Position numbers and translations under genes: made by a program
In this document: piece after piece, positions 3 through 17,435 of the stretch
Position numbering within the stretch: position 1 is the first letter of the stretch
How the letters are laid out: the number at the start of each line of letters is the position of its first letter
The notes under the pieces: model-generated
What the model saw: only the letters and a program-made list of their open reading frames with translations
What the model was told of the DNA's origin: nothing
Database searches by the model: none
Source: Gemmatimonadota bacterium
GTDB taxonomy: Bacteria; Gemmatimonadota; Gemmatimonadetes; Gemmatimonadales; Gemmatimonadaceae
Assembly (NCBI GenBank): GCA_021324775.1
Contig: JAJPIM010000021.1
Coordinates: 1 to 45,517 of the forward strand
DNA: 45,517 nucleotides
Reading direction: 5' to 3'

Positions 3-182
3 GAATACCAGCGAGACGTCAAGGAGACGTACTCGACCGACATGGCGGATATGGACATGGATATGGACGACATGCACGACATGCCGGACATGCACGGTAC
101 GTCCTCGCCCGCTGCTGCCGGCGCGCGTGCGGGGAGGCCCTCCGACAGCAGTCTCACTCGACGAACAGCCCAGACACCGTGA
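3..182 (+). CDS. C-terminal end of an unidentified protein with a Met/Asp/His-rich tail (5' end outside window)
   Basis: An open frame enters from the window edge and stops at TGA 180-182. The last 59 residues include a run built almost only of Met, Asp and His (residues about 14-32 of the visible part, repeated D-M and H-D-M steps), then a Ser/Ala/Arg-rich disordered tail. The stop overlaps the GTG start of the next gene as GTGA, so the two are probably translationally coupled and this is likely the preceding gene of the ceramide operon. The fold is outside the window and I do not recognise the family. Met/His/Asp runs of this kind could bind Cu or another metal, but that is inference. Confidence 0.6.
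   Translation, partial: EYQRDVKETYSTDMADMDMDMDDMHDMPDMHGTSSPAAAGARAGRPSDSSLTRRTAQTP
43..97 (+). repeat. GACATG-type hexamer-like microrepeat within the coding tail
   Basis: The bases from about 43 to 97 are a degenerate tandem of GACATG/GATATG/CACGAC hexamers. They encode the Met-Asp-His tail of the partial gene. The regular spacing suggests expansion by slippage. Confidence 0.6.
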
Positions 183-1447
183 AATCAAGCGCCCAGCACG
201 CACCCGCTCAGGCATATCCGCGGACCGGGCCGAGTGAAGAGCCGGTGGCCGCAGCCGTGACCGAGCCGTCCGACGTCTTTGCCAAGGCGCATCAGTTCAC
301 GCGCCTTCGCGAAGTGCAGGCCATGGGGCTCTATCCCTATTTCGTACCTGTGCAGGCCTCGGGCTCGACCGAGATCATCATCAACGGCAAGCGCGGTGTG
401 ATGGTTGGGTCGAACAATTATCTGGGCTTCAGCCACGACCCGCGAGTGGTGGCGGCCGCGCAGGAGGCGATCGCGACGTACGGGACGGCGTGCACGGGGA
501 GCCGCTTCCTGAACGGCAACACGGAGCTGCACGAGCGCATCGAGGACCGGCTCGCGAAACTGACCGGCAAAGAGGCGGCGCTCGTGTTTTCCACGGGGTT
601 CCAGACCAACCTGGGCGTCATTTCCGCGCTCGTGGGCCGCGACGACACCGTCTACATCGACAAGCTGGATCATGCGAGCGTCGTCGATGGTTGCCGCCTC
701 GCGGCGGGCGACACGGTGCGGTTCCGGCATGGTGATCTCGACGACCTCGAAGCCAAGCTTCGCCAGTCGAATGGCGGCGGGAAGCTGATCGTCGTCGATG
801 GCGTGTTCAGCATGGAAGGCGACATCGTCGATCTGCCGCGACTGGCGGAGCTTCGGGCACGCTACGATGCGCGGCTCGCCGTCGACGATGCGCACGCGAT
901 CGGGGTGCTGGGCAAGACCGGCGCGGGGACGGCCGAGCATTTCGGACTCACCGACCAGGTGGACCTGATCATCGGGACGTTCAGCAAGTCGTTCGCGTCG
1001 ATCGGCGGGTTCGTCGCGGCGGACCAGGTCGTGATCGACTATCTCAAGCACCACGCGCGAAGCCTGATTTTCAGCGCCTCGATGCCACCGTCCGCTTGCG
1101 CGGCCGTCCTGGCGAGTATCGAGATCCTCGAGAAGGAGCCCGAACGACGGCTCAACCTGTGGGCCAATGCGGACCGGATGAAGGTGGGGCTCAAAGGCCT
1201 GGGGTTCGATATCGGTGGGAGCGAAACGCCGATCGTGCCCGTCGTCATCGGTGACGACCTGCTGACGTTCGAGTTCTGGCGCCAACTCTACGACAACGGG
1301 GTTTTCGCCAATGCTGTCGTGGCGCCGGCGGTCCCGCCGCACGCCTCGCGCATTCGCACGTCGTACTCGGCCACGCACACGCCCGACCAGCTCGACTTCG
1401 TCCTCGAGGTGTTCGCCCGCGTGGGTAAGGGGCTCGGGGTCATCTGA
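179..1447 (+). CDS. spt: Serine palmitoyltransferase (alpha-oxoamine synthase family)
   Basis: This 422-residue PLP enzyme belongs to the alpha-oxoamine synthase family (KBL, BioF, Spt, HemA). Family marks are the N-terminal NNYLGF motif, the TGSRFLNG segment, the DDAHAIG motif holding the cofactor-binding Asp/His, and GTFSKSF with Lys270 as the PLP lysine. By sequence alone it could be BioF or KBL. The next two genes match the other two steps of bacterial ceramide synthesis, so serine palmitoyltransferase, which condenses serine with acyl-CoA/ACP to 3-ketosphinganine in the cytoplasm, is the best call. The GTG start overlaps the stop of the preceding gene (GTGA), and about 40 low-complexity residues precede the conserved core. 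Confidence 0.88.
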   Translation: MKSSAQHAPAQAYPRTGPSEEPVAAAVTEPSDVFAKAHQFTRLREVQAMGLYPYFVPVQASGSTEIIINGKRGVMVGSNNYLGFSHDPRVVAAAQEAIATYGTACTGSRFLNGNTELHERIEDRLAKLTGKEAALVFSTGFQTNLGVISALVGRDDTVYIDKLDHASVVDGCRLAAGDTVRFRHGDLDDLEAKLRQSNGGGKLIVVDGVFSMEGDIVDLPRLAELRARYDARLAVDDAHAIGVLGKTGAGTAEHFGLTDQVDLIIGTFSKSFASIGGFVAADQVVIDYLKHHARSLIFSASMPPSACAAVLASIEILEKEPERRLNLWANADRMKVGLKGLGFDIGGSETPIVPVVIGDDLLTFEFWRQLYDNGVFANAVVAPAVPPHASRIRTSYSATHTPDQLDFVLEVFARVGKGLGVI

Positions 1448-1505
1448 CGATGGCTGTGTCCACCGCCAGGTTCGGCATGAGACGGCACGGCGGACGGAGG
1501 CACGG

Positions 1506-2633
1506 CTGATCGACGTCAAGCCGGTGCGGGGGCGAGCGGACCTTCGCGCATTCATCGAACTGCCGTACCGATTGTATCGCGACGACCCGCTGTGGATTCC
1601 GCCGTTGCGTCGCGACGTGGCGCACATGCTGGACAAGCACCATCCGTTTCACCAGCATGCCGAGGTCGAGCTGTTTCTGGCCCGAAACGATGCGGGTCAG
1701 GTCGTTGGGCGGATCGCCGCGGTCAAGAACGACGCGCATCTCGCGCAGCACCACGACGGGGCCGGATTCTTCGGGTTCTTCGAGAGCGAGCGCCAGCCTG
1801 AGGTCGCGGCGGCGTTGTTTTCCACGGTCTCCGCGTGGCTGGCCGCACGGGGACTCGGTGTCATGCGGGGACCCGCCAGCTTCTCCGTCAACGAGGAGTG
1901 CGGCTTGCTGGTCAAGGGCTTCGATTCGTCGCCCGTCGTCATGATGCCGTATAACCCGCCATGGTACGCCGATCTGATCGAGGGATACGGCTTCAAGAAA
2001 TCCAAAGATCTGATCGCGTACCACCACGAGGCCAACGGCGTGCCGGATCGGTTGGAGCGGGTCGCCGGCCGGCTGGCGGAGCGGCACCAGATCAAGATCC
2101 GTCCGCTGGATCTCAAGCAATTCAAGGCGGAAGTCGCGCGCGTCCGGATGCTCTACAACGCGGCATGGGACGCGAACTGGGGCAACATCCCCATGACCGA
2201 CGCCGAGTTCGACGATCTGGCCAAGCAACTCAAGCCGGTCGTGGTCCCGGAGCTGGTGCTGTTCGCGGAAGTCCGCGGCGAGCTCGCGGGCTTCGCGCTG
2301 GCGCTTCCCGATCTCAACGTCGCGCTTCGGCACATGAACGGCCGCCTCTTTCCCCTCGGCTGGGCGTACGGCCTGTGGTACGGGCGAAAGATCGACGCCG
2401 CGCGGATCCTCACTCTGGGAGTTCTGCCCAAGTACCGGTTGACCGGGGCGGCGGAATTGCTCTACATGGCGCTTTACAAGAACGCGACGGCGCGCGGCAT
2501 GACGCATGGCGAAGCGTCGTGGATTCTCGAGGACAACCTCCTCATGCGCCAGGCGATCGAGAACTTCGGCGGCGATCCGTACAAGACGTACCGACTTTAC
2601 GACAAGCCGATCCAGGCACCCGCTGCGGGCTGA
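1506..2633 (+). CDS. bCerS-like GNAT-fold acyltransferase (bacterial ceramide synthase candidate)
   Basis: About 375 residues, resembling the large GNAT-type proteins that lie between Spt and the epimerase-like reductase in bacterial ceramide loci. In Caulobacter the equivalent protein, bCerS, N-acylates the long-chain base. Visible landmarks are an N-terminal PYRLYRDDPLWIPPLRRDV stretch, a GPASFSVNEECGLLV segment, and the C-terminal LGVLPKYRLTGAAELLY acetyltransferase-like acyl-donor region. No ATG, GTG or TTG lies in frame at the conserved N-terminus. A GGAGG at 1496-1500 sits 5 nt before an in-frame CTG at 1506, used here as a provisional start. A 19-codon ATG mini-ORF (1450-1509) occupies the gap after spt in another frame. 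The family call rests on context and general similarity. Confidence 0.72.
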   Translation: MIDVKPVRGRADLRAFIELPYRLYRDDPLWIPPLRRDVAHMLDKHHPFHQHAEVELFLARNDAGQVVGRIAAVKNDAHLAQHHDGAGFFGFFESERQPEVAAALFSTVSAWLAARGLGVMRGPASFSVNEECGLLVKGFDSSPVVMMPYNPPWYADLIEGYGFKKSKDLIAYHHEANGVPDRLERVAGRLAERHQIKIRPLDLKQFKAEVARVRMLYNAAWDANWGNIPMTDAEFDDLAKQLKPVVVPELVLFAEVRGELAGFALALPDLNVALRHMNGRLFPLGWAYGLWYGRKIDAARILTLGVLPKYRLTGAAELLYMALYKNATARGMTHGEASWILEDNLLMRQAIENFGGDPYKTYRLYDKPIQAPAAG

Positions 2634-2645
2634 CCCGAAATCCCG

Positions 2646-3623
2646 ATGACTGGTTCTGGCGCCGGCTTCGCGCTCGTCACGGGCGCCAGCGGGTTCGTCG
2701 GCGGACACCTGGTCGAAGCGCTGGTCGCGGGCGGGTATCGGGTGCGCTGCCTCGTGCGCCCGCAGAGCGATCGCCGTTGGCTCGACAGCCTCGGGGTCAG
2801 CTATGCGGCCGGCACGGTGGAAGATGCCGGTGCGCTGCGGCGCGCGGTCGACGGGGTGGACGTCGTGTTCCACCTCGCGGCCCTCACGACGACGGCCCGC
2901 GCATCCGAATACGACAGGATCAACTACGGCGGCGTCGTGCGCCTCGTGGATGCCATGGCCGCGCGTCCCGTCAGGCTGGTCTTCTGCTCGAGCCTCGCCG
3001 CGGGAGGGCCAGCCCGAGCGGGCCGTCCGCTGACGGAGGCGGATCCGCCGGCTCCGATCGGCCCGTATGGCGAGTCGAAGCTTCGGGGTGAGCAGGTGGT
3101 GCTCAGTGGCGGCGTGCCTGCGGTCGTCGTGCGGCCATCGGCCGTGTACGGGCCGCGCGAGCGCGACATCCTGGCCGCATTCCGCCTCGCGGCGCGCGGC
3201 CTCGCGATCCGGACCGGGCCGCGGGGGCAGCAACTCGCCATGGTACACGTGGCGGACGTCGTGCGGGGACTGATCGCGTCCGCGCGGAGCGTGACCGCCG
3301 GTGGCGTCTACTACATCAACGGCGGCAACCATCCCTGGGACGACATCGTGACGGCGATGGGGCTCGCAGTCGGACGCCGCTCCCTCGTGGTTCCACTACC
3401 GGGGGTAGTGGTGCGTGGCGTGTCGTATGTCGCGCGCGAGTTTGCCCGCGTTACGAGCACCAAGGCGCTTCTCACGCCGGAGCGCGCTCGCGACATGTTG
3501 CAACCGGCGTGGATGTGCGACGATTCGCGCGCGCGCCGCGAGCTGGGCTATGCCCCGCAGATCGGCCTCACGGACGGGATGCGCTCGACGGCCGAGTGGT
3601 ATCGCTCGGCGGGGTGGCTCTAG
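2646..3623 (+). CDS. NAD(P)-dependent epimerase/dehydratase-family reductase, CerR-like
   Basis: A 325-residue extended short-chain dehydrogenase. It has the Rossmann motif TGASGFVG (residues 12-19), Ser115/Ser116 before the active site, and the catalytic YGESK pair Tyr141/Lys145. In Caulobacter the protein of this class in the ceramide locus, CerR, reduces the 3-keto group after N-acylation, and the gene order here (spt, bCerS-like, this gene) supports the same role. It starts 12 bp after the bCerS-like stop and ends 2 bp from the stop of the convergent flippase-like gene. Other extended SDR functions, such as sugar epimerase or sterol dehydrogenase, cannot be excluded from sequence alone. 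Confidence 0.8.
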   Translation: MTGSGAGFALVTGASGFVGGHLVEALVAGGYRVRCLVRPQSDRRWLDSLGVSYAAGTVEDAGALRRAVDGVDVVFHLAALTTTARASEYDRINYGGVVRLVDAMAARPVRLVFCSSLAAGGPARAGRPLTEADPPAPIGPYGESKLRGEQVVLSGGVPAVVVRPSAVYGPRERDILAAFRLAARGLAIRTGPRGQQLAMVHVADVVRGLIASARSVTAGGVYYINGGNHPWDDIVTAMGLAVGRRSLVVPLPGVVVRGVSYVAREFARVTSTKALLTPERARDMLQPAWMCDDSRARRELGYAPQIGLTDGMRSTAEWYRSAGWL

Positions 3624-3625
3624 AC

Positions 3626-4654
3626 TCAGCTCGTTTTGGGGGCGGTGTGCGCGCCGCGACGGCCGGAGACCCAGGTCAGTGTGAGGCCGATCCCGATCCA
3701 CGTGAGTTCGCGCAGGCGGCTCATGACCGACGCGTACACGCCGAGCGCCGGTGGGAGGCCGACCAATCCGAAGATGAGATAGAGTCCGCCTTCCTTCGAT
3801 CCCAGCTCGAACGGGATGAACACCGTGAGGTTCGTCGCGAGCTGCGAGAAGGCGCCGATCACGAACGCGGTGGCGTAGCCGATATGGAGGCCCATCGCGC
3901 GCGCGATGAACAGGAACTCGAACATCGCGATCATACGGCCCACTACCTCGGCGAGAATGGCGATCGTCAGCCGGCGGCGCTCCCCCTCGGTGAGCTCCGC
4001 CATCTGGTCATCGATGTGCTGCAAGGTGGGCCGCGCGGACTCGAAGCGAGCCGAATAGCGCCGGAGGATCGGGATTCGTGGCACCAGGTTGAGCGCCCGC
4101 TCGAGGAATCCGCGCCGGAAGAGCGACAAGAGGAGTGCGGCAACACCGAGCAGCCCGATCGCGGTCACGGTCAGCACGATGTCGGTCGCCGTCGTGCGGG
4201 GGATCAGCACCCACGCCACCGGCATGGCGATGACCCAGAACAGCACCTGGCCGAGCGTATGGACCACGCGGAAGCTCACGACCGACGCGGCCGCGCGGCT
4301 GGTACCGACCCAGTCCTTCGCGGCCGCGACGCGGAACGGCTCTCCACCGAGCGCAACGAACGGGGTCACGTAGTTGATCGCGAAGCTGGAGACGCTGATG
4401 GCGTACGCGCGCCAGAACGGGATCATCTTGGAGGTGGTGTTCTTCGCGGTCAGGTGGGCCCCTGCGCGGAGGAGTGTCTCCCAGGCAACGGTGTTGCTGA
4501 CATACACGAGGCCCCAGACGGCGACGATGGGGCCGAGCACCCACGCCGTGCTGCGGAGATTCCTGAGCAGTCCGTCGACGCCGGCCCGATAGAGCAGGCC
4601 CGCGAACACGACGGCTCCGAAGAGGAACACGACCAGCCGAACGCGCTTGCTCAC
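3626..4654 (-). CDS. LPG synthase TM/flippase-like membrane protein (PF03706-type)
   Basis: A 342-residue polytopic membrane protein with about eight hydrophobic segments and the features of the lysylphosphatidylglycerol synthase transmembrane/flippase-like family. These include the AINYVTPFVALGGEPFR segment and a late FIPFELGSKEGG motif near a P-x-x-G-x-K/x-E-G pattern. Such proteins move or modify lipids at the inner membrane. The GTG start is chosen because GAGGA lies just upstream, overlapping the stop of the Gfo/Idh gene (the stop is at 4662). It is the last gene of the seven-gene minus-strand unit and is a candidate translocator for the unit's lipid product. The substrate is unknown. 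Confidence 0.8.
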   Translation of the reverse strand: MSKRVRLVVFLFGAVVFAGLLYRAGVDGLLRNLRSTAWVLGPIVAVWGLVYVSNTVAWETLLRAGAHLTAKNTTSKMIPFWRAYAISVSSFAINYVTPFVALGGEPFRVAAAKDWVGTSRAAASVVSFRVVHTLGQVLFWVIAMPVAWVLIPRTTATDIVLTVTAIGLLGVAALLLSLFRRGFLERALNLVPRIPILRRYSARFESARPTLQHIDDQMAELTEGERRRLTIAILAEVVGRMIAMFEFLFIARAMGLHIGYATAFVIGAFSQLATNLTVFIPFELGSKEGGLYLIFGLVGLPPALGVYASVMSRLRELTWIGIGLTLTWVSGRRGAHTAPKTS

Positions 4655-4661
4655 CCGTTCC

Positions 4662-5714
4662 TCAACCGATCGCGACGCGCGAGCCGGTGCGCGCCGAGGT
4701 GTAGGCCGCTTCCAGGACGCAGGCCACCCGCGTGATATCGTCGAGCGCTGCCGGGTCGGTGCCACGGTCCATCGCGTCCGCAAATGCGGAGAAGAGCGCG
4801 GCGAACCAGCCGGCGTAAGACCGCTTGTCGAGTTGCACCGAGAAGTCGTGCGATTCCGGAGCCTGTCCGTTTCGCTCCAGGCGCAGGATGCCGCCCTGCC
4901 AGTCGATCGTGCCGCGATCGCCGATGAATCGCACGCGATTCTCGCGATGAGATGCGGACCACGTCAGCAGCAGAGTCGCGAGGCGGCCGGGAAACTCCAC
5001 CGCCACCTGTGCGGTGTCTTCGACGCCGTAGTCGAAGTGCCGAAGGCGGCCAGTCCACGCGCGGACACCTGTCGCCTGCTCTCCCGCGGCATCCAGCAGC
5101 GAGTAGAGCAGATGCGTCCCGTGATCGAGCAGGATCCCGCCGGCGCTCTCGGCCGCGACGGTCCTCCACGGTTGCGCGCGCGGGTCGCTCCCCGCATCGG
5201 CAGCGGGCCGATAGACCGAGAGCTCGGCCAGGTGCCAGCGGCCGATCGCCCCGCCGCGAATCCATTCCAGCATCTGGCGCCAGGCCGGGTTATACCGGTA
5301 CTGGTGGCAGGGCACCACGACACGGCGTGCGTTGCGTGCGGCGAGGGCGAGCTGCGCGGCCTCGTCCCGCGAGAGGGCGACGGGTTTCTCGCAGACCACG
5401 TGATAGCCGCGGGCGAGGGCCCAAAGCGTGGTCTCCAGGTGCGTGGCGGTCGGGGTGCAGACGTCGACGAAGTCCAACGTCCCCATCGTCTCGAGCGCGG
5501 CGCGATCGGGCACCACGGGGATGTCGGCACCGGCCGATGCACCGGGAGCGGGATCCACGGCGGCGACGATGCCGAGGCGGGCGCGCAGTGCCGGGTCATG
5601 TCTGAAGCCCGGCAGGTGGGCGTTCCGTGCGATCCCGCCAAATCCGATCAGCGCGCCGCGATAGGGGTGTGATCCGGCCGGGACGCTGCCCGTCCGCCCA
5701 TCAGTTTCCGCCAA
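4662..5714 (-). CDS. Gfo/Idh/MocA-family NAD(P)-dependent oxidoreductase
   Basis: A 350-residue protein with an N-terminal Rossmann fold (GFGGIA at 24-29) and the family's Glu-Lys-Pro motif at 109-111 (CEKPVAL), followed by the C-terminal alpha/beta substrate domain, which contains GGILLDHGTHLL. Family members oxidise or reduce sugars and cyclitols, myo-inositol 2-dehydrogenase among them. It overlaps the CDP-alcohol phosphotransferase gene by 14 bp, so it belongs to the same transcript. In context it may make the keto-polyol that the neighbouring aminotransferase would aminate, which is inference. Confidence 0.88.
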   Translation of the reverse strand: MAETDGRTGSVPAGSHPYRGALIGFGGIARNAHLPGFRHDPALRARLGIVAAVDPAPGASAGADIPVVPDRAALETMGTLDFVDVCTPTATHLETTLWALARGYHVVCEKPVALSRDEAAQLALAARNARRVVVPCHQYRYNPAWRQMLEWIRGGAIGRWHLAELSVYRPAADAGSDPRAQPWRTVAAESAGGILLDHGTHLLYSLLDAAGEQATGVRAWTGRLRHFDYGVEDTAQVAVEFPGRLATLLLTWSASHRENRVRFIGDRGTIDWQGGILRLERNGQAPESHDFSVQLDKRSYAGWFAALFSAFADAMDRGTDPAALDDITRVACVLEAAYTSARTGSRVAIG

Positions 5715-6723
5715 TGGGAACCGCTGGCGGTGTCGGTGGGTTGGGTGGAGTTGGTGGCACCGTGGCCATATCGCCCCGGAGGATCGCTCCGGCGCGGCGT
5801 TCCTGCTCGCCGACGATCGCCGCCATGATCACGTTCATCGGGAGGACCGTGACCCACAGGAGTCCAGCGGGCCATCCCGCGACGGCGGTAACGCCCAGCA
5901 CGATGAACCGGACGTTCTGGCCGAGCCAGGGACACCAGGACAGCAGGGGCAAGATCCGCTCGCGATAGGCGGCGGCGCCTCCGGGCGCGACACGATGGTC
6001 GCGGGTCGCCCGCACCAGCGCGACCGTTTGCGGGAAGAGCCGGGCCTGAAGTCTCGCGTAGCTCCGGTAGATGTTCGTCGTGAGCCGCTGAAACCACGAG
6101 ATGTTCGCTGGCACCTCGACCTCGTCGACATCGAGCTCGCTGCCTTTGCCCGTGCCCAGCGCAAGGAAGGCATGACGAACGAAGTCGATCGTGGCACTCT
6201 GGCTGGTGTGGCTGAACGACGCGATGACCGCGAGCAGGATGGCGGTCGTCCACGACCAGCCGCTGTAGAGCACCAGCCGGACGACGAGATGGACGCCGAG
6301 GTTCAGGAATCGGAGCCCATCCGATGATCCGTCGAGCGCGCGGCCCAAGCGGGTGGACGTGCCCCGCCGGCGCGCGAGTTGTCCGTCCGCGCTATCGAAC
6401 AGGTCGGAGACAATGAACAGCGCGAAACCAGCGGCATTGATCCACGGGCTCGTGTACACGAACAGGTGGCCTGCGACGAGTCCAATCACGACACTGATGA
6501 GGGTCACCTGGTCGGGGGTGATCCGCGTCGGGTAGAGGATGCCCGTGATGCGTGCGCCGATCGGGCGGAAGAACCGCAGATCCAGCCATTCCTCGACCTC
6601 GTCGCCCTTGGTCGCGAGCGGGTCCGTCTGGGGCGGGCCGGGTGGCCTCGCGGCTGCATCGTGGGCAGCCGCCAGCGGATCGGGCCGGCCGCCCAGCGCC
6701 TGATCCACCGTCTCCCAACTCAC
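5701..6723 (-). CDS. CDP-alcohol phosphatidyltransferase-family enzyme
   Basis: A 340-residue membrane enzyme that carries the complete family motif: Asp113-Gly114, Ala117-Arg118, Gly127, Asp131 and Asp135, with exact DGxxARx8GxxxDxxxD spacing. It has hydrophobic segments at about 72-108, 140-170 and 265-305. The family transfers a phospho-alcohol between CMP and an acceptor alcohol (PgsA, PssA, inositol-phosphate types). The N-terminus has about 40 extra Pro/Ala-rich residues, and the C-terminus is a Pro-rich tail of P-T-P-P-N-P repeats. The GTG start overlaps the aminotransferase stop as GTGA. A nucleotidyltransferase in the same operon suggests that the CDP-activated partner is made locally rather than being CDP-diacylglycerol. 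Confidence 0.88.
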   Translation of the reverse strand: MSWETVDQALGGRPDPLAAAHDAAARPPGPPQTDPLATKGDEVEEWLDLRFFRPIGARITGILYPTRITPDQVTLISVVIGLVAGHLFVYTSPWINAAGFALFIVSDLFDSADGQLARRRGTSTRLGRALDGSSDGLRFLNLGVHLVVRLVLYSGWSWTTAILLAVIASFSHTSQSATIDFVRHAFLALGTGKGSELDVDEVEVPANISWFQRLTTNIYRSYARLQARLFPQTVALVRATRDHRVAPGGAAAYRERILPLLSWCPWLGQNVRFIVLGVTAVAGWPAGLLWVTVLPMNVIMAAIVGEQERRAGAILRGDMATVPPTPPNPPTPPAVPIGGN

Positions 6724-8087
6724 GCCCCGACGCGCTCCGCGGCTTCTCCGAGCACGCCCTTCATGATGGCAAGCGCCTCGAGTGCCTCCTCTTCCCGAAT
6801 CACGAGCGGCGGATTGATGCGAACCTCAGGATTGTAGATCATCGCCAGGACTCCTCGCGAGAGGAGGGTATCGAAGATCCAGCGTGCCTGATCCTTGCCG
6901 ATCAGTTTATTCGTGCCGGGGACCACCAGATCCATGCCGATCATGAGACCGCGGCCGCGCACCTCTCCGACGATCGGGATCTCGCGTTGCCAGGTCTTCA
7001 TCTCGGCCAGCATCCGCGCGCCAACGACGCGGCTGTTCTCGACCAGTCCTTCCTCGATGATCGTCTCGATCGACGCGCGTGCGGCGGCCGCGGCGAGAGG
7101 ATTGCCGCCGTAGCTCGATGAACTGCCGCTGGGATTGGCCCACGGCTTGGCGGCTGCCACCTGCTCGCGCGCGATGACGCCGGTCATCGGGAAGCCGGCG
7201 CCGAAGCCCTTGCCGATCGTCATGATGTCCGGCAGGACGCCGTCATGCTCGATCGCGAACATCTTGCCCGTGCGGCCGAACCCCGTGAGCATCTCGTCGG
7301 CGATGAGTACGGCGCCGATCTTGTCGGCGAGCTCGCGTAGCACGCGGAGATAGCCTGGAGGCGGGATGACGTTGCCGGCCGTTCCCTGGATCGGCTCGAC
7401 GATGATCGCCGCCACGTCGTTCGTCGTCTCGACCTCGATCTTCTTGCGCAGGAACTCGACACAGTGCCAGGAGCACGAGGGGAACGTCTTGTCGAACGCG
7501 CAGCGTTCACACGAGGCGTACGGCGTGCTATAGGTGCCCGGCATCAGGGGGCCGAGGTGATGCTTGAAGCTCGAGCCGAGAAGCGGAAGGACACCGCTCG
7601 TCTTGCCGTGGAAGCCGCCCCAGAACCCGATGAACTCGGTCTTGCCGGTATACGACTTGGCGAGGCGGAAGGCCGACTCCACCGCTTCCGCGCCGCTGCT
7701 GTAGAGCTGCGTGCGGTTGAGATCACCCGGGGTGATGTCCGCGATCAGTTTGACGAGCGCGGCCCGGTGTTCGGACGTGAAGCTGCCGACATGCACGCGG
7801 GCGACCTGGCGCTGGACCGCGGCGACGTACTTCGGGTGCGCGTAGCCAAGGGCGGCGACACCCACACCGGCGAGGAGATCTATGTACCGGCGCCCGTCGA
7901 GATCGTAGAGCATGACGCCTTCGCCGCGATCGATGCAGAGGCGGCTGAAGAGGGCGACGCTCTGGGTGCCAGGGGCGAGGAATTCGGCTTCGGCGTTGAA
8001 GGCGGCGAGCGAGCGGGGACCCGGGCCGGCGCGGTCGGCTGGAGTGGCGGGGCGGGGCTCGGCGAGCGCCGTCAAAGGCTGCGTCAC
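6720..8087 (-). CDS. Class III PLP aminotransferase with a Cys4 insertion
   Basis: A 455-residue fold-type I aminotransferase. Visible features are the SSGAEAVESA phosphate-binding segment near 130-139, Asp264 in ADEMLTGFGRTG, and Lys293 in IGKGFGAGFP, which is the Schiff-base lysine. A Cys-rich stretch at 193-209 (Cys193, Cys196, Cys205, Cys209) could bind a metal or form disulfides; comparable Cys motifs occur in some ornithine/GABA-type class III enzymes. It is coupled by GTGA overlaps to the ATP-grasp gene upstream and the CDP-alcohol phosphotransferase downstream. The amino acceptor is unknown. The operon suggests a keto- or aldehyde-polyol rather than a normal amino acid intermediate. 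Confidence 0.88.
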   Translation of the reverse strand: MTQPLTALAEPRPATPADRAGPGPRSLAAFNAEAEFLAPGTQSVALFSRLCIDRGEGVMLYDLDGRRYIDLLAGVGVAALGYAHPKYVAAVQRQVARVHVGSFTSEHRAALVKLIADITPGDLNRTQLYSSGAEAVESAFRLAKSYTGKTEFIGFWGGFHGKTSGVLPLLGSSFKHHLGPLMPGTYSTPYASCERCAFDKTFPSCSWHCVEFLRKKIEVETTNDVAAIIVEPIQGTAGNVIPPPGYLRVLRELADKIGAVLIADEMLTGFGRTGKMFAIEHDGVLPDIMTIGKGFGAGFPMTGVIAREQVAAAKPWANPSGSSSSYGGNPLAAAAARASIETIIEEGLVENSRVVGARMLAEMKTWQREIPIVGEVRGRGLMIGMDLVVPGTNKLIGKDQARWIFDTLLSRGVLAMIYNPEVRINPPLVIREEEALEALAIMKGVLGEAAERVGA

Positions 8088-8917
8088 GTCGGAGATCTCG
8101 GTGAGGTGCGAGTGGTGTAGTAGTCGTGTGCATACGCCGCAATGTGCTCCGCGGCGTCGTCCCGGAATGGGGCGAAGCTTGGCCAGTCGTTCAGGTCGAT
8201 CAGCGTCGGCTGGTCCGGCGCAGGCAGTGCCACGTCCCCGCCGAACACGTCGAGTCGCAACTCGGCCGCCGCTGCGAAGGCGAGGGCGCGCAAGCGCGCC
8301 TCATCGACTTCCGGCACCGGGCCCGATGGCCCCGCCTCCGCACCGTAATACCTGAAAAACCGGCCGTCTGCGATCCCGTAGAACTTAAGCACCGGGCCCG
8401 GGACGTGCTCCTGCAAAGCGACCCTGGAGATGCCACGGGCGCCAAAGGCATCGATCGCGGCCCGAAGGCCGTCGCGCTCGACCGTCACGACATCCTCGGA
8501 GCGCTCGGCGTGGACGTCACCGCGCTTGACCCAGACCCGGCGTCCGTCGATGCCGAATCCGTCCAGGGCGGCGCGACCGGTAGTCGAGATCACGGCAGTC
8601 CGGGGGAAGGCCACCGGCCGGCCGGCGAGAATGGTGACGAGGCGGTGCCGGTGGCAACTCAATACGCTCGAAGGCCGATTGATGATCGGAACGGCCGAGT
8701 TCTCGAGGGGGAGCAGTTTTTCCGAGGCGTCGGGACCCTGGCACATGTTGAGCACCAGGTCCGAGTCCGGCAGCGTGGTCGCGAGCACGTCGCTCTCCGA
8801 CGCTCGCGCGACTTCCCAGCCCCGCGCGACAAGGCGGGCCACCGCCGCGTCGAGGATGGCGGTATCGTTGGCGCGATGCTGATTCGGTGAGTACGAAGGC
8901 TGCCGGTAGAGCGCCAT
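8084..8917 (-). CDS. ATP-grasp fold enzyme (RimK/ITPK-like)
   Basis: About 277 residues from the ATG at 8917; an in-frame GTG lies 8 codons further upstream. The central part has the ATP-grasp core: RVWVKRGDVHA (nucleotide-binding Lys), a VALQEHVPGPVLKFYG strand with the adenine-contacting region, and a late DLNDWPSFAPFR motif. The Asp-x-Asn near the C-terminus is the metal-binding pair of ATP-grasp enzymes. The P-G-P-V-L-K-F-Y-G and D-x-N-x-x-P-x-F combination recalls inositol phosphate kinases of the ITPK type as well as RimK-like ligases. Either a kinase or a carboxylate-amine ligase would fit the operon. It overlaps the aminotransferase gene by 4 bp. Confidence 0.75.
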   Translation of the reverse strand: MALYRQPSYSPNQHRANDTAILDAAVARLVARGWEVARASESDVLATTLPDSDLVLNMCQGPDASEKLLPLENSAVPIINRPSSVLSCHRHRLVTILAGRPVAFPRTAVISTTGRAALDGFGIDGRRVWVKRGDVHAERSEDVVTVERDGLRAAIDAFGARGISRVALQEHVPGPVLKFYGIADGRFFRYYGAEAGPSGPVPEVDEARLRALAFAAAAELRLDVFGGDVALPAPDQPTLIDLNDWPSFAPFRDDAAEHIAAYAHDYYTTRTSPRSPT

Positions 8918-8984
8918 GACGCGTGGCGCATCGCCGGTCACAGGCGCACTCCGGGCCTGGCCAGCATGGACTCCGGCGGACAGC

Positions 8985-9710
8985 TCATTCGTTCTCCGTA
9001 CCAAGCCAGGCGTTTGCGATGTCGAGATCGTGGCGGCGGTCCACGTCGACGATGCGTGGAACCTCAACCGTGGCTACACGATAGCCGTCAGCAACCATCT
9101 GAGCCAGGAACCCGCGCATCCGGGAAGCCCCCTGGCGCCGGGCGGTCGCGGCCTCGGTGCGGGCCCGTGGACTGAAGGCGTACACACCGCCGGTGACACA
9201 CGGGGGGTCGCTGCGGGTCTCGCCTATGGCACGGGCGACGCCCGCGGCGTCCCGGTGGACCCACAGGGGGCGCTCGTCATCGACATAGGGCGTCACCGCC
9301 AGCACCGCGTCCGCCCCGTCCGAGATCGCCTGAACCGCCCCATCGAATACTGCCCGCCAATCCCGGGCTCGCATCACCGTGTCGACCATGGTGCAAAAGA
9401 CATCTCCTCGGGGCACGGCGGCAAGTCCATCCACGAGTGTGTGGAGGGACGAGGGCGTGTGGCAGGTCACGACGCGGACCGCCGGAGGAGCACGGCCCGT
9501 GCCGTCCAGCACCTCGTCGAACGACGGGACAACCACGGACTCGGCGTCGCGGAGCATGCACGTGATACTCTCGCAGCCGAGGGCGCCGAGCATGCCGACG
9601 AGGCGAACGAGCTGCGGCTGGCCGCCGACCGCGACCGTCGCCTTCGGGCCGCCGATGCCATCGGCCGCGAGACGTGTCCCCTCACCGCCGGCGAGGATCA
9701 GGCCGTGCAT
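8985..9710 (-). CDS. MobA/GlmU-like nucleotidyltransferase (NTP transferase domain)
   Basis: About 241 residues. The ATG at 9710 places the LAGGEGTRL nucleotide-binding loop at residues 6-14, followed by a GPK lysine at about 23, the usual arrangement of sugar-phosphate and alcohol-phosphate nucleotidyltransferases. A central FCTMVDTVMR supplies a metal-binding Asp candidate. It overlaps the HAD phosphatase gene by 13 bp and lies 67 bp before the ATP-grasp gene. With a CDP-alcohol phosphotransferase in the same unit, a cytidylyltransferase acting on a polyol- or amino-alcohol phosphate is the most economical guess. The base and substrate cannot be read from the sequence. Confidence 0.82.
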   Translation of the reverse strand: MHGLILAGGEGTRLAADGIGGPKATVAVGGQPQLVRLVGMLGALGCESITCMLRDAESVVVPSFDEVLDGTGRAPPAVRVVTCHTPSSLHTLVDGLAAVPRGDVFCTMVDTVMRARDWRAVFDGAVQAISDGADAVLAVTPYVDDERPLWVHRDAAGVARAIGETRSDPPCVTGGVYAFSPRARTEAATARRQGASRMRGFLAQMVADGYRVATVEVPRIVDVDRRHDLDIANAWLGTENE

Positions 9711-10453
9711 GCCGACGGATCGCGGGGCGGAAGGGTGGCAGGGGCCAGCACGCCGGGTAACTCCGTCAGCGATGCGATGCGCGCCGTCGGCACGCATCCA
9801 GGCGGCAGTGGCCGCTGAGCCGGCGTGATCCAGACGGTTTGCATGCCAAGCTTGGCGCCTGGCCGGATATCGGCTTCGAAGTTGTCACCCACCATCCATG
9901 TTGCCTGTGGAGGAAGGCCCAGCGCCTCGATCGTATGCGTGAACGGGCGCGCGTCCGGTTTGGCGAATCCGAGGACCGCGGAATCGGTGACGATCTCGAA
10001 CAGATCGCGTATGCCAAGCTCCGTCAAGCAAATACCGAGATTGCCGGTAAAGTTCGAGATGATGCCGAGGCGGAAGCGGGGCTGGAGCGCTTCGAGCAGG
10101 GGGCGGTTGCGCGCGACTATTTGAATGGCTTGTTCGTGCACCCGGTTGGCCATCGCGCCCGGATCAATGGCGGCGCCGTCGGGCAACAGCGTCCGCAGAA
10201 GGCCGGCCTGAGTTTCCAGCATTACGCGGAATCCCAGGCCGCGGATTCCGGGGACCGTCTCGAGGGCTCGGTCCGACGCCCGAAACAGGGCCTCGAAGGC
10301 GTCGGCGCCAAGTTGGCCGCCGCCGGCCGCGTACGCCTCGTGAAACCGGACACTCCACCGTAGCCCGTCCGCGTCCAGCGTGCCGCCAAAATCAAACAGC
10401 ACCGCACCGCGATCATTGGGCGCGGGGCCGCCATTCGTCGCGATCAGGGCCAC
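9698..10453 (-). CDS. HAD-superfamily phosphatase
   Basis: About 251 residues from a GTG at 10453. All four HAD motifs are visible: DFGGTLD near residue 21 (nucleophile Asp), IISNFTG near 131 (motif II Ser), AKPDARPF near 164 (motif III Lys), and MVGDNFEADI near 187 (motif IV Asp). The cap domain lies between motifs I and II. No ATG exists before motif I. A second GTG at 10402 would place motif I at residue 4 and is an alternative start. It is the first gene of the tightly packed minus-strand unit, 173 bp from the MFS gene. A role in dephosphorylating a head-group intermediate is inferred from position only. Confidence 0.82.
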   Translation of the reverse strand: MALIATNGGPAPNDRGAVLFDFGGTLDADGLRWSVRFHEAYAAGGGQLGADAFEALFRASDRALETVPGIRGLGFRVMLETQAGLLRTLLPDGAAIDPGAMANRVHEQAIQIVARNRPLLEALQPRFRLGIISNFTGNLGICLTELGIRDLFEIVTDSAVLGFAKPDARPFTHTIEALGLPPQATWMVGDNFEADIRPGAKLGMQTVWITPAQRPLPPGCVPTARIASLTELPGVLAPATLPPRDPSACTA

Positions 10454-11932: not shown

Positions 11933-13969
11933 ATGGCTGACATCCTCTGGGAACTCAGCGCGGCCGAGAAGCGTCGCACCCGCATGGCGGCGTTCATCGA
12001 CGCGCAGCGTGCCGCCGGCGAGACCGGACTTGTGGCGCCCGACGCGCCGGACGCGTTCGCCTGCCTGCACCGCTGGTCCGTCACGCGCCCCGATCGGTTC
12101 TGGGCCGCTGTGTGGCGGTACTGCGGCGTGATCGCCGACGAGCGGAGCGGCGCTCCACCGTGGGACGATGTCCTCGTGGGCGGCGAGCGTATGGCGCCGC
12201 CGGATTCGATGCTCGGACCGCGGTGGTTCACCGGCGCGCGGCTCAACTTCGCGGAGAACCTTCTCGCGGGCGAAGGCGCATCGCTGGCGCTGGTCGCGTG
12301 GGACGAACGGGGGCCTGCGGGGCGTCTCACGTTCGGCGAGCTTCGCCAGGCGGTGGCATCGTGCGCCAGTGCACTGCGTGCCGCGGGGGTGGCCCCCGGC
12401 GACAGAGTCGCGGGATTCCTGCCCAACATACCGGAGACGGTCATCGCGATGCTGGCGGCGACGAGCATTGGTGCAGTGTGGTCGAGCTGCTCGCCCGATT
12501 TTGGGGCCGCCGCGGTGCTTGACCGCTTCGGGCAGATCGTCCCTCGGGTGCTGATCTGCGCGGACGGGTATCACTACGCCGGAAAGCGGATCCCGCTCGG
12601 CGATCGCAACGCGGAGGTCGCCGCCGCGCTGCCCTCGGTCGAGCGGTGCGTGATCGTGCCGAACCTCGACAGAGATGCGCGTCCCGAGCGGCTCGCGGAA
12701 CGCTTTCCGCACGCCATCGCTTGGCGTGATTTCCTGGCGGGCCACGAGCACGCGGCCGCGGTATACGAACGCCTCCCGTTCGGGCAGCCGGCGTTCATCG
12801 TGTACTCGTCGGGCACCACCGGCGCGCCGAAGTGCATCGTGCACAGCGCGGGCGGCACGCTGCTGCAACTGCTCAAAGAGCACGTACTGCACGTCGATAT
12901 CCGGCGAGAGGACCGGGTATTCTACTACACGACGTGCGGCTGGATGATGTGGAACTGGCTCGTCAACGCGCTGGCGGTGGGTGCCGCGGCGGTGCTGTAC
13001 GACGGTGCCGCGTTCCCTCCCGCGCGGCCCGCCATCCTGTGGGATATGGCGGCGGATGAAGGCGTGACCGTGTTCGGCACGAGCGCGAAATATCTGGCGC
13101 TTGCCGAGAAGCACGGCTTGCGCCCCGCCACGACGCACGACGTGCGCGGGGTGCGCACGATATTGTCGACCGGGAGCCCGCTCGCCGCGCACAGCTTCGA
13201 CTACGTGCGTCGCGAGGCCGGACCGCACATCCAGCTCTCGAGCATCAGCGGCGGCACCGACATCGTGTCGTGCTTCGTCCTCGGCAACCCCCTGACGCCG
13301 GTGCGGCGCGGTGAGATTCAGGGACGAGGACTCGGGATGGCGGTCGAGGTGTTCGATGGCGCGGGGCGAGCAATCACCGGTGTGGCGGGCGAGTTAGTGT
13401 GCACGAAGCCATTTCCCTCGATGCCGGCCAGGTTCTGGAACGACCCTGGCGCGGAGAAATACCGGGCGGCGTACTTCGCGCGGTATCCGAACGTGTGGCG
13501 GCATGGCGACTGGGCGCTGCTCACCGGCGACGGCGGCGTCGTCATCTACGGACGCAGCGACACCACGCTCAATCCGGGCGGCGTCCGCATCGGTACGGCG
13601 GAGATCTACCGTCAGGTCGAGCAGCTTCCGGAGATCGTCGAAAGCGTGGCGGTGGGTGCGGAAGTCCGGGCCTCGGACGGAGGACATGACACGGAAGTCG
13701 TGCTGTTTGTGCGGCTCGCTCCCGGCGTGACTTTGGACGACGCCCTTTGCGCGCGGCTCCGCGACGTCATCCGCCGGAACACGAGCCCCCACCACGTGCC
13801 CCGGCGCATCCATGCTGTGGCGGACATCCCTCGGACCGTCAGCGGCAAGATCGCGGAGCTGGCGGTTCGCGAGGCCATCCACGGGCGCCCGGCGGACAAT
13901 GCCGGTGCCCTGGCCAATCCCGGGGCGCTGGCCGAGTATCAGGAATTCGGCAAGTCGCTAGATTCATAG
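11933..13969 (+). CDS. aacS: Acetoacetyl-CoA synthetase (acetoacetate-CoA ligase)
   Basis: A 678-residue member of the acyl-adenylate-forming enzymes. The P-loop is IVYSSGTTGAPK (about residues 284-295), followed by IVHSAGGTLLQLLKEH, a stretch typical of acetoacetyl-CoA synthetases rather than acetyl-CoA synthetases. TGDGGVVIYGRSD is the hinge-region motif and RTVSGKIAELAV carries the C-terminal catalytic Lys. The length fits the family. It activates acetoacetate to acetoacetyl-CoA in the cytoplasm. Acetoacetate is an end product of tyrosine breakdown, and the next three genes encode that route. phhA begins 3 bp after this stop. No good ribosome-binding site is visible before the ATG. Confidence 0.9.
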   Translation: MADILWELSAAEKRRTRMAAFIDAQRAAGETGLVAPDAPDAFACLHRWSVTRPDRFWAAVWRYCGVIADERSGAPPWDDVLVGGERMAPPDSMLGPRWFTGARLNFAENLLAGEGASLALVAWDERGPAGRLTFGELRQAVASCASALRAAGVAPGDRVAGFLPNIPETVIAMLAATSIGAVWSSCSPDFGAAAVLDRFGQIVPRVLICADGYHYAGKRIPLGDRNAEVAAALPSVERCVIVPNLDRDARPERLAERFPHAIAWRDFLAGHEHAAAVYERLPFGQPAFIVYSSGTTGAPKCIVHSAGGTLLQLLKEHVLHVDIRREDRVFYYTTCGWMMWNWLVNALAVGAAAVLYDGAAFPPARPAILWDMAADEGVTVFGTSAKYLALAEKHGLRPATTHDVRGVRTILSTGSPLAAHSFDYVRREAGPHIQLSSISGGTDIVSCFVLGNPLTPVRRGEIQGRGLGMAVEVFDGAGRAITGVAGELVCTKPFPSMPARFWNDPGAEKYRAAYFARYPNVWRHGDWALLTGDGGVVIYGRSDTTLNPGGVRIGTAEIYRQVEQLPEIVESVAVGAEVRASDGGHDTEVVLFVRLAPGVTLDDALCARLRDVIRRNTSPHHVPRRIHAVADIPRTVSGKIAELAVREAIHGRPADNAGALANPGALAEYQEFGKSLDS

Positions 13970-13972
13970 AGG

Positions 13973-14932
13973 ATGGCCACTCCGGTGATCGACCGCGGAC
14001 AGGGGGCCGGCGCGAGCGCCGGGCCGGGACTGACGACGACCCAATCGCCGTTCATTGAGGCGGCTCAGCGGGCTGGACAACTGTACATCGAGCAGCCGTA
14101 CGAGCTCTACAGTGCGTCGAACCATGATGCCTGGCAGCATCTGTTCTCGCGCATGACGGGACGGTGGCAGGCGTATGCCAACGACCGGTTCCTGCAGGGA
14201 ATCGACTCACTCTGTCTGCCGGCGGACCGGGTGCCACGGCTGGACGACGTGAACCGGTTCCTGGCGCCTCGTACAGGATTTCGGGCAAAGGGCGTGAGCG
14301 GGTACGTGCCGGCGTTCGTGTTCTTCGACTGCCTGCGCAATCGCGAGTTCCCGACGACGATCACGATTCGCGATGGTGTGTCGCTCGACTATCTGCCCGA
14401 GCCGGACATCTTCCACGACATCGCGGGCCATGTGCCGATGCACACCGACCGTGCGTTCGCCGATACGCTGGTCCGGTTCGGCGACTGTGCGCATACGGCG
14501 GCGTCGCTCGTTGCGGGGATTCGCGACCAGGACGAAAAGATGCGGCGGATCACGAGCGTCTTCCGGGCGATGGCGCGGTTCTTCTGGTTCAGCATCGAAT
14601 TCGGACTCATGAAGGGGACGGATGGACGCGGGTACAAGGTGTATGGCAGCGGGCTCCTGAGCTCTCATGGCGAGATCGCGCACGCGGTCGATTCGCCGTC
14701 CGTGCAGCGGTACCCATTCCAGCTCGAGTGGGTCGTCAACCAGAGCTTCGAGATCGACCGTCATCAGCCATTGCTGTTCTCGGTCCAATCGTTCGAGCAT
14801 CTGTTTGAACTGGTCGGCGAACTCGAAGCGTGGATGCGTGCTGGAAAGCTGGACAACGTGGCGCCGGGCGAGCCGGCGATGAGCGAGGCCGATGTGAAGA
14901 GTTTCCTCGATGCCTCGGTGGCCGCGGCATAG
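13973..14932 (+). CDS. phhA: Phenylalanine 4-monooxygenase
   Basis: A 319-residue aromatic amino acid hydroxylase. The iron ligands are visible: His148 and His153 in PDIFHDIAGHVP, and Glu209 in FSIEFGL. The downstream YGSGLLSSHGE segment is also conserved. It converts phenylalanine to tyrosine using tetrahydrobiopterin and oxygen. The length matches bacterial PhhA; no separate N-terminal ACT regulatory domain is present, and the first 25 residues look disordered. It is followed by hpd and hmgA in the order of the pathway. No pterin-carbinolamine dehydratase gene (phhB) is in the window. Confidence 0.94.
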   Translation: MATPVIDRGQGAGASAGPGLTTTQSPFIEAAQRAGQLYIEQPYELYSASNHDAWQHLFSRMTGRWQAYANDRFLQGIDSLCLPADRVPRLDDVNRFLAPRTGFRAKGVSGYVPAFVFFDCLRNREFPTTITIRDGVSLDYLPEPDIFHDIAGHVPMHTDRAFADTLVRFGDCAHTAASLVAGIRDQDEKMRRITSVFRAMARFFWFSIEFGLMKGTDGRGYKVYGSGLLSSHGEIAHAVDSPSVQRYPFQLEWVVNQSFEIDRHQPLLFSVQSFEHLFELVGELEAWMRAGKLDNVAPGEPAMSEADVKSFLDASVAAA

Positions 14933-14978
14933 GGAGCAGGTGCCGAACGGAATCGGGCGCGCGACGAACCGTTCTTGA

Positions 14979-16115
<1,137 letters not shown>

Positions 16116-16241
16116 CAACCGTGGTGAGTGATTGGTGGCCCGCGCGCGGGTGCCGGCTCCGGCGGTCGCGTCCCGGACTCCGGCGATTTGCCTCCAGCGA
16201 TCCACTGACCGCGAACCACCAACTGCCAACCATCCATTCTC

Positions 16242-17435
16242 ATGCCGATATATCACACGCTGGGCGAGATCCCGCGTAAGCGGCACACCGTCTTTCGCAA
16301 GCCGGATGGCGGTCTGTATGCCGAGGAACTGATGGGGCACGAGGGTTTCACGGGAACATCCTCGCTCCTGTACCACCTGCATCCGCCGACGACCGTGAAA
16401 TCGGCGCGCCGGATCCGCGATCTGGCGTATCAGGCCGACGACGACGCCACCCTGCGGCACCGGCATTTCCTGACTGGGCGCGTGCGTCCCGGCGGGAGTC
16501 CGACGCTCGGCCGGGTGCCGCTCCTGTTCAACGCCGACGTCGCCATGCTCTACGTCGCGCCGGATGAGCAGGACGCGCATTTCTACAAGAACGCGCAGGC
16601 CGACGAGATCGTGTACGTCAGCAAGGGCTCGGGGGTACTGGAGTCGGCGTTCGGCGACCTCCCATACAAGGAGGGCGACTACCTGATCATCCATCGCGGC
16701 ATCACGCATCGCTTCCGGCTCGCGCTGGCGGACGGACCGTCGCAGTTTCTCATCATCGAGAGCCGCGGCCACGTCCGGTGGCCGAAGCGGTATCGGAACG
16801 ACTTCGGCCAGCTCATCGAGGGTGCCCCCTACTCGGAGCGGGACATCCGCCGCCCGGCGGCGCTCCGCCCGGTCGACCAGATGGGGGATTTCCGGATCCT
16901 GGCCAAACAGTATGACGGATTGAGCGAGATCGTCCTCGACCATCATCCGTTCGACGTCGTGGGCTGGGACGGGTATTTCTACCCGTGGGCGTTCAACATC
17001 CACGACTTCGAACCGATCGTCGGGCGCGTTCACCAGCCACCGCCGGTTCATCAGACATTTCAGGGCGACGGGTTCGTCGTGTGCTCGTTCTGCCCGCGGC
17101 CGTTCGATTTCGACGCCAACGCGCTGCCCGCGCCGTACAATCACAGCAACGTGGACTCCGACGAGGTGCTGTTCTACGCGTCGAGCGAGTTCATGAGCCG
17201 GAAGGGCATCGAATACGGCAGCGTCACCCACCATCCGGACGGCATCCCCCACGGGCCGCATCCGGGGCGCGCCGAGGCGAGCATTGGCGCCAAGTTCACC
17301 AACGAACTGGCGGTCATGATGGATTCCTTTCGCCCGCTGAAAGTGGCGAAGGCAGCGCTGGCGATCGAAGATCCGCTCTACCACAAGTCGTGGGTTGACG
17401 CCCAGCACGCGCAATTCAACCCACCGACATCGTGA
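16242..17435 (+). CDS. hmgA: Homogentisate 1,2-dioxygenase
   Basis: A 397-residue cupin-fold dioxygenase that opens homogentisate to maleylacetoacetate. It has the family's N-terminal YHTLGEIPRKRHT, central YKEGDYLIIHRGITHRF, and the iron-site region HHPDGIPHGPHPGRAEA near the C-terminus. It is a little shorter than the human enzyme, as is usual for this bacterial branch. A 126-bp gap separates it from hpd. Its stop overlaps the GTG of the first M16 peptidase. Maleylacetoacetate isomerase and fumarylacetoacetase, which complete the route, are absent from the window. Confidence 0.94.
   Translation: MPIYHTLGEIPRKRHTVFRKPDGGLYAEELMGHEGFTGTSSLLYHLHPPTTVKSARRIRDLAYQADDDATLRHRHFLTGRVRPGGSPTLGRVPLLFNADVAMLYVAPDEQDAHFYKNAQADEIVYVSKGSGVLESAFGDLPYKEGDYLIIHRGITHRFRLALADGPSQFLIIESRGHVRWPKRYRNDFGQLIEGAPYSERDIRRPAALRPVDQMGDFRILAKQYDGLSEIVLDHHPFDVVGWDGYFYPWAFNIHDFEPIVGRVHQPPPVHQTFQGDGFVVCSFCPRPFDFDANALPAPYNHSNVDSDEVLFYASSEFMSRKGIEYGSVTHHPDGIPHGPHPGRAEASIGAKFTNELAVMMDSFRPLKVAKAALAIEDPLYHKSWVDAQHAQFNPPTS

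Follow-up and report, generated by a model that had tools for sequence, protein, structure and literature searches.

A seven-gene set beside ceramide genes in a Gemmatimonadota bacterium as a candidate pathway to an amino-inositol lipid head group

What is made by seven closely packed genes that lie next to ceramide genes in a soil Gemmatimonadota bacterium? The genes occupy the minus strand from 10453 to 3626 on contig C21 of a 4.2 Mb genome; the whole stretch of DNA that was analysed (45,517 nucleotides) is referred to as the window. An earlier note on this DNA had proposed that the set oxidizes and aminates a polyol, activates it as a cytidine diphosphate (CDP) derivative and attaches it to a lipid, with an amino-cyclitol phosphoceramide as a possible product. 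This proposal was supported by four comparisons: myo-inositol-phosphate synthase (MIPS) genes inside related operons, serine palmitoyltransferase (spt) beside the set in four phyla, a lack of phosphoenolpyruvate (PEP) mutase and an ATP-grasp protein that resembles inositol kinases. Its polyol can be refined to inositol as the probable substrate. The set resembles a known, though unproven, bacterial pathway to inositol lipids to which a dehydrogenase and an aminotransferase have been added, and it probably specifies, in about six phyla, a hitherto undescribed membrane lipid whose head group is an amino-inositol. We consider it rather likely that the set serves to produce and export a phospholipid head group of the amino-inositol (inosamine) type, carried most likely on ceramide.

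The genes of the set, in their order on the minus strand, and the three ceramide genes on the plus strand are as follows.

9698..10453, minus strand: HAD-family protein (gene 1; Pfam PF00702, 15-sequence alignment)
8985..9710, minus strand: MobA-like nucleotidyltransferase (gene 2), predicted CTP:inosamine(inositol)-phosphate cytidylyltransferase (PF12804, alignment; open reading frame listed to 9797)
8084..8935 (start about 8920-8935), minus strand: ATP-grasp enzyme (gene 3), predicted inositol/inosamine kinase (AlphaFold, Foldseek and profile matches; metal motif D-[LIV]-N-x-W-P-S-F; open reading frame listed to 9067)
6720..8087, minus strand: class III pyridoxal phosphate-dependent aminotransferase (gene 4), predicted inosose aminotransferase (PF00202, E 2e-98)
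5701..6723, minus strand: CDP-alcohol phosphotransferase (gene 5; PF01066, alignment, full catalytic motif)
4662..5714, minus strand: Gfo/Idh/MocA oxidoreductase (gene 6), predicted inositol dehydrogenase (PF01408, PF22725, alignment)
3626..4654, minus strand: LPG_synthase_TM/HpnL-like membrane protein (gene 7), predicted lipid flippase (PF03706, TIGR03476; open reading frame listed to 4783)
179..1447, plus strand: serine palmitoyltransferase, first ceramide step (NF047600, 519 bits, under the equivalog cut-off of 640)
1311..2633, plus strand: GNAT-type acyltransferase, candidate bacterial ceramide synthase (PF00583; downstream of spt in Gemmatimonadota and Bacteroidales loci)
2646..3623, plus strand: SDR/epimerase-family protein, candidate ceramide reductase (PF01370; adjoins the set in about half of the Gemmatimonadota loci)

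Adjacent stop and start codons within the set overlap or almost touch. The start sites of the flippase, ATP-grasp and nucleotidyltransferase genes were reset by comparison with relatives, the mechanical list of open reading frames placing them too far upstream; for the flippase a start at about 4654 was adopted, as its relatives begin after the Gfo/Idh stop, and for the nucleotidyltransferase one at about 9710. The ceramide trio lies tail-to-tail with the set. The flippase gene ends at 3626 and the SDR gene at 3623, three bases apart, so that the set meets the ceramide genes end to end, as the earlier note had described; its account of seven compact genes with named folds at 3626-10453 was likewise borne out, by Pfam matches and, for the ATP-grasp enzyme, by an AlphaFold model.

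The ATP-grasp gene was searched for in 298 Gemmatimonadota genomes and was present in 32; the 28 larger loci were fetched. The seven genes stood in identical order in 26/28 of these loci, the two others being truncated by a contig end (L056) or carrying an insert before the flippase gene (L054). With an ATP-grasp profile 314 relatives were found among species genomes, of which the best 80 were kept, 42 of them outside Gemmatimonadota. Nearly all of these 42 loci, from Ignavibacteria and other Bacteroidota, Verrucomicrobia, Acidobacteria, Polyangiaceae and ‘Deltaproteobacteria’, and Eisenbacteria, carried the other genes of the set around the ATP-grasp gene; the same set was found in other gene orders in Ignavibacteria, Verrucomicrobia, Acidobacteria, Polyangiaceae and Eisenbacteria. 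Judged by gene content and order, the set is co-inherited and is no chance neighbourhood. In many loci of Gemmatimonadota family f2 (e.g. L062:3478-4539) a PAP2_3 (AUR1-like) protein is encoded between the SDR and flippase genes, and a second CDP-alcohol transferase gene often adjoins the set; the window contains neither.

The search for the set beside spt that the earlier note had suggested thus located it both within and beyond Gemmatimonadota. The spt, acyltransferase and SDR genes adjoin the set in about half of the Gemmatimonadota loci, and spt also adjoins it, though in a layout unlike that of Gemmatimonadota, in Verrucomicrobia, one acidobacterium and two Bacteroidales, making four phyla in all. 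A close spt (at least 50% identity) was present in 30/32 cluster-bearing Gemmatimonadota genomes versus 87/266 others, a count that ignores kinship; within the window's own family (f1) the corresponding figures were 4/4 and 6/99. MlaE was found near the set in several Gemmatimonadota loci, and an Ignavibacteria operon (L105) contains MlaE, an ABC ATPase and an MCE-domain-like protein (MlaEFD-type lipid transport). The company of Mla-type genes and spt points to a membrane lipid as the product.

The nature of the head group is suggested by MIPS, the gene of which lies within the operon in most of the Ignavibacteria and Bacteroidales examined; the substrate of the set, and hence the scaffold of the head group, is therefore probably inositol. 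A Bacteroides-type MIPS was inside the operon in 24/42 non-Gemmatimonadota loci, a separate, actinobacterial-type MIPS lineage adjoined the ATP-grasp gene in L142, and MIPS was encoded elsewhere in the genome in 15/16 of the genomes outside Gemmatimonadota that lacked it in the cluster. All 32 cluster-bearing Gemmatimonadota genomes encoded MIPS. The presence of MIPS alone was rejected as a diagnostic sign in this phylum, since 17/20 cluster-free genomes encode it too.

The dehydrogenase and aminotransferase genes behaved as a unit. Both were present in 32/42 and neither in 8/42 non-Gemmatimonadota loci; the two mixed cases were L140, which lies at a contig end, and L142, which is one real exception. 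No copy of the aminotransferase was found anywhere in the seven genomes that lacked it in the cluster, and a Melioribacter genome (G316) had two clusters, one with the pair and one without (L109, L116). From this both-or-neither pattern and the double clusters of G316 the pair looks like one module that switches between inositol and aminated inositol. Two variants were seen in the same collection. In L142 (9198-12554) the ATP-grasp protein has an N-terminal extension, and MIPS and Gfo/Idh genes adjoin without an aminotransferase, possibly representing a further variant. In L109, L111 and L115 two tandem ATP-grasp genes share one operon with the aminotransferase and dehydrogenase genes; perhaps there is one kinase each for inositol and inosamine.

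The closest described relative is the putative alternative inositol lipid cluster of Bacteroides vulgatus and Prevotella, which comprises genes for a nucleoside triphosphate (NTP) transferase, a CDP-alcohol transferase, a HAD protein, MIPS and an LPG-synthase-like protein (PMC9246714). Phosphoinositol dihydroceramide has been demonstrated as a product of B. vulgatus and P. veroralis, and MIPS usually adjoins the cluster, with exceptions such as P. copri (PMC9246714). The tags given are BVU_RS13095 for the NTP transferase, BVU_RS13105 for the CDP-alcohol transferase and BVU_RS13115 for the HAD protein, and ATP-grasp, aminotransferase and dehydrogenase are not named in the text (PMC9246714); going by the tag numbers alone, there is space for one gene between BVU_RS13095 and BVU_RS13105. 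A search of 198 Bacteroidales genomes detected the ATP-grasp gene in 24, from which 19 loci were fetched. The order NTP transferase, ATP-grasp, CDP-alcohol phosphotransferase, (flippase), HAD was found in 17/19 (L197 is cut and L201 differs), so that ATP-grasp stands between the NTP transferase and CDP-alcohol transferase in the clusters found here. MIPS was in view in 16 of these 17, and neither aminotransferase nor dehydrogenase was found in any of them. In L120 and L201 the ATP-grasp gene adjoins IPC synthase and PIP synthase genes. At L120:1967-8104 the ATP-grasp/CDP-alcohol transferase/HAD set is joined to genes for a PgpA-like protein, PIP synthase and phosphoinositol dihydroceramide synthase, and both inositol lipid routes are thus interleaved there.

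Five of the seven window genes (NTP transferase, ATP-grasp, CDP-alcohol transferase, flippase and HAD) match the B. vulgatus type, which also shares with the window a MIPS in the genome and a link to ceramide; NTP transferase, CDP-alcohol transferase and HAD genes stand together at 5701-10453. The window differs in its added Gfo/Idh dehydrogenase and class III aminotransferase, in having no MIPS gene next to the cluster or in the operon, and in the last aspartate of the CDP-alcohol transferase motif, which is intact here and Gly in the Bacteroidales copies read. The statement of the earlier note that it knew of no described pathway with exactly this set needs narrowing, since the set is described in part. 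As far as gene content tells, three things are new relative to PMC9246714: the dehydrogenase-aminotransferase module, the constant presence of ATP-grasp and the occurrence in many phyla. Because of the added aminotransferase, the product is predicted to differ from phosphoinositol dihydroceramide. On balance we favour a pathway that would be a B. vulgatus-type inositol-phosphoceramide route with an oxidation-amination module inserted.

The individual enzymes were then compared with known families. The ATP-grasp protein of the window had no Pfam or NCBIfam match, hence no match to a curated ITPK domain model, and a PDB search with the single sequence gave a chance match only, so that profiles were needed. 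With a broad profile of the family the best PDB match was ITPK4 (1.1e-5), with human ITPK1 at 0.002 and RimK at 0.15; the similarity is distant. ATP-grasp ligases carry a Glu-x-Asn metal motif. Near the C terminus of the present family the metal motif read D-[LIVM]-N-x-W-P-S-F in 69/70 sequences and E-x-N in 0/70. An AlphaFold model (pLDDT 90) gave ATP-grasp fold matches by Foldseek and VIA, D-Ala ligase being the top Foldseek match. In sequence the protein is closest to inositol-phosphate kinases and kinase-like; this similarity, the D-x-N motif and the occurrence of the protein in clusters to which plain inositol phosphoceramide is assigned argue for a kinase. For the NTP transferase, CTP-inositol-1-P, phosphocholine and glucose-1-P cytidylyltransferases were among the PDB profile matches, all of them weak. 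The aminotransferase is 67-91% identical within Gemmatimonadota and 50-63% identical in other phyla, and both it and the Gfo/Idh protein retain their catalytic residues. In the latter K110, D197 and H201 are invariant in the alignment, with EKP in 60/60 and D-x-G-x-H in 59/60 homologues. The CDP-alcohol phosphotransferase of the window has the complete motif (D2DG2AR8G3D3D), D-x2-D-G-x2-A-R-x8-G-x3-D-x3-D was found in 27/27 Gemmatimonadota homologues, and the nearest PDB entries were AF2299 and PI/PIP synthases. In the HAD protein motif I reads D-F-G-G-T in a 15-sequence alignment, the nucleophilic aspartate being kept and the second aspartate (general acid/base) being replaced by Gly; homologues outside Gemmatimonadota read D-[FYML]-G-G-T in 41/41. 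A HAD enzyme of this kind may act on a substrate with a good leaving group or may do something else, and its role is uncertain; a transferase role has been proposed for the HAD protein of the alternative inositol lipid cluster (PMC9246714).

From these comparisons we infer the enzymatic steps, their order and the acceptor lipid. In the simplest chain in which every gene has a part, MIPS would supply inositol phosphate, from which the phosphate would be removed by the HAD protein or a housekeeping phosphatase. The Gfo/Idh enzyme would oxidize one ring hydroxyl to a ketone, which the class III aminotransferase would exchange for an amine. The inosamine would then be phosphorylated by the ATP-grasp enzyme and converted to CDP-inosamine by the NTP transferase, and the CDP-alcohol phosphotransferase would transfer phospho-inosamine to ceramide formed by the products of the adjacent spt, acyltransferase and reductase genes. 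Finally, the LPG_synthase_TM protein would translocate the finished lipid. Alternatively, the ring might be oxidized and aminated as the phosphate, as the CDP derivative or as part of the completed lipid. The scheme is least secure at the HAD step and in the choice of acceptor lipid. The fuller proposal has about an even chance of being right: that amino-inositol phosphoceramide is a new lipid class, made in about six phyla by a dedicated CDP-inosamine pathway in which an ATP-grasp inositol kinase phosphorylates the ring anew, at a different position from that given by MIPS.

Several observations weigh against this scheme. The association with spt is uncorrected for phylogeny except within family f1, and two cluster-bearing genomes lack a close spt, which may reflect gaps in metagenome-assembled genomes. 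The HAD family is without the general-acid aspartate of ordinary phosphatases, the DxD form of motif I being absent. Fold comparison does not distinguish kinases from ligases for the ATP-grasp protein (RimK Z 21, PPIP5K Z 19). The inosose aminotransferase type on record is DegT-type; the enzyme encoded here belongs to class III. The best NCBIfam match of the Gfo/Idh protein, TIGR04380 (inositol 2-dehydrogenase), scored 65 bits, well under the cut-off of 355. In most homologues from Bacteroidota and Ignavibacteria, Gly or Ser takes the place of the last (fourth) motif aspartate of the CDP-alcohol transferase. MIPS lies outside the operon in the window's genome: a gene of the same lineage (64%) is found on contig C31 (L155:7113-9205) beside that of a PIP-synthase-like CDP-alcohol transferase (163 bits, cut-off 170), and from this pair the organism probably makes an ordinary inositol phospholipid too, by a second inositol lipid route. 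As to the fourth aspartate, the presumed catalytic base, Gly or Ser was read in L105, L114, L130, L188 and others; Gemmatimonadota copies are intact.

The acceptor is probably ceramide, with diacylglycerol as the alternative: the same head group would then be placed on diacylglycerol to give an amino-phosphatidylinositol, the ceramide genes being mere neighbours or being served later by a separate transferase. We regard this as rather unlikely. CDP-alcohol transferases of the same fold usually act with glycerolipids, about half of the Gemmatimonadota clusters do not adjoin spt and an AUR1-like PAP2_3 protein is encoded beside the set in some loci; a route by which phosphoinositol (PI)-diacylglycerol is made first and PI-dihydroceramide second has been proposed for B. 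vulgatus (PMC9246714). Against it stand the four phyla in which spt adjoins the set and the near-universal presence of spt in cluster-bearing Gemmatimonadota. The chemistry of the head group might also differ. An ATP-grasp ligase that joins an amino acid or other acid to the amine (or to inositol), giving an acylated aminocyclitol, would agree with the nearest folds by Z score (RimK and the LysX/ArgX amino-acid ligases) and with the top Foldseek match; it is unlikely, because ATP-grasp is kept in Bacteroidales clusters that have no aminotransferase or dehydrogenase and are assigned plain PI-dihydroceramide, and because the sequence profile and the near-invariant D-x-N motif favour inositol kinases. 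In Bacteroidales, five core genes together with MIPS seem to be enough for inositol. The product might likewise be a plain inositol lipid here, with the dehydrogenase and aminotransferase engaged in some secondary task, for example the turnover or epimerization of inositol. That the pair comes and goes as a unit inside the operon in distant phyla, that one genome holds both kinds of cluster and that the aminotransferase, 50-63% identical across phyla, is no casual passenger make this quite improbable.

No enzyme's substrate is fixed by sequence alone, and all curated substrate-level models scored under their cut-offs; the scaffold activated with CDP could thus be a different sugar or polyol phosphate, such as an amine derived from glycerol or heptose, a reading to which we assign little probability in view of the two MIPS lineages that cluster with the set and the MIPS gene in nearly every set-bearing genome. 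A soluble aminocyclitol, an antibiotic or a capsule component as the product, in place of a lipid, is highly improbable. Streptomycin-type aminocyclitols do begin by inositol dehydrogenation, amination and phosphorylation, but the present set comes with a CDP-alcohol phosphotransferase, a flippase-like protein, genes for Mla lipid transporters and spt, and its constant members include neither a glycosyltransferase nor a polymer gene. A phosphonate head group was rejected: PEP mutase (TIGR02320) had no match over the curated cut-off in any of the 32 cluster-bearing genomes (0/32), in agreement with the absence of phosphonate genes reported in the earlier note.

The inosamine phosphoceramide route preferred here can be set beside four further systems. 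In the scyllo-inosamine 4-phosphate branch of streptomycin synthesis inositol is oxidized by a Gfo/Idh enzyme, transaminated and then phosphorylated at the expense of ATP, as is predicted for the window; unlike the window, the aminotransferase StsC is of DegT type and the product enters an antibiotic instead of being activated with CDP and placed on a lipid. Di-myo-inositol phosphate and archaetidylinositol synthesis (IPCT/DIPPS, AIP synthase) share CTP-dependent inositol phosphate activation (the former route) and CDP-alcohol transferases of the same fold, but amination is absent, the pathways end in an osmolyte or an archaeal ether lipid, and the window proteins score far under the curated cut-offs. 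BT_1522-BT_1526 of B. thetaiotaomicron likewise bring MIPS-derived inositol onto ceramide, but use CDP-diacylglycerol, PIP synthase, PIP phosphatase and an AUR1-like transferase (PMC8791184, PMC9246714); no AUR1-like IPC synthase, PIP synthase or PgpA-like phosphatase was found among the ten genes at 179-10453 in Pfam and NCBIfam scans. In the synthesis of ceramide diphosphoglycerate by Caulobacter crescentus (CpgA-CpgD), too, a head group destined for a ceramide lipid is activated with CDP by a cytidylyltransferase, but the substrate is phosphoglycerate, a ceramide kinase (CpgB) takes part and a dehydrogenase or aminotransferase is not described (PMC12275187).

No description of inosamine or aminoinositol lipids was found in the open-access literature, a scope within which absence is a weak sign. 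If the proposed pathway is correct, an aminated, zwitterionic inositol-type head group would be added to bacterial sphingolipids. Genome sequences by themselves would then be enough to predict it for Gemmatimonadota, Ignavibacteria, Verrucomicrobia, Acidobacteria and others, the lipidomes of which are poorly known. Aminolipids of unknown structure in soil and sediment lipidomics would gain a testable identity and a gene marker (aminotransferase plus ATP-grasp). The alternative inositol lipid route proposed for Bacteroides and Prevotella of the gut, itself unproven, would moreover gain the ATP-grasp gene as a constant and previously unmentioned component, which bears on inositol phosphoceramide synthesis in these organisms.

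On the far side of the set, at 11933-17435, acetoacetyl-CoA synthetase-like, phenylalanine hydroxylase-like, 4-hydroxyphenylpyruvate dioxygenase-like and homogentisate dioxygenase-like genes (named by sequence reading) form an aromatic amino acid breakdown cluster, which partly adjoins the set in two congeners too.

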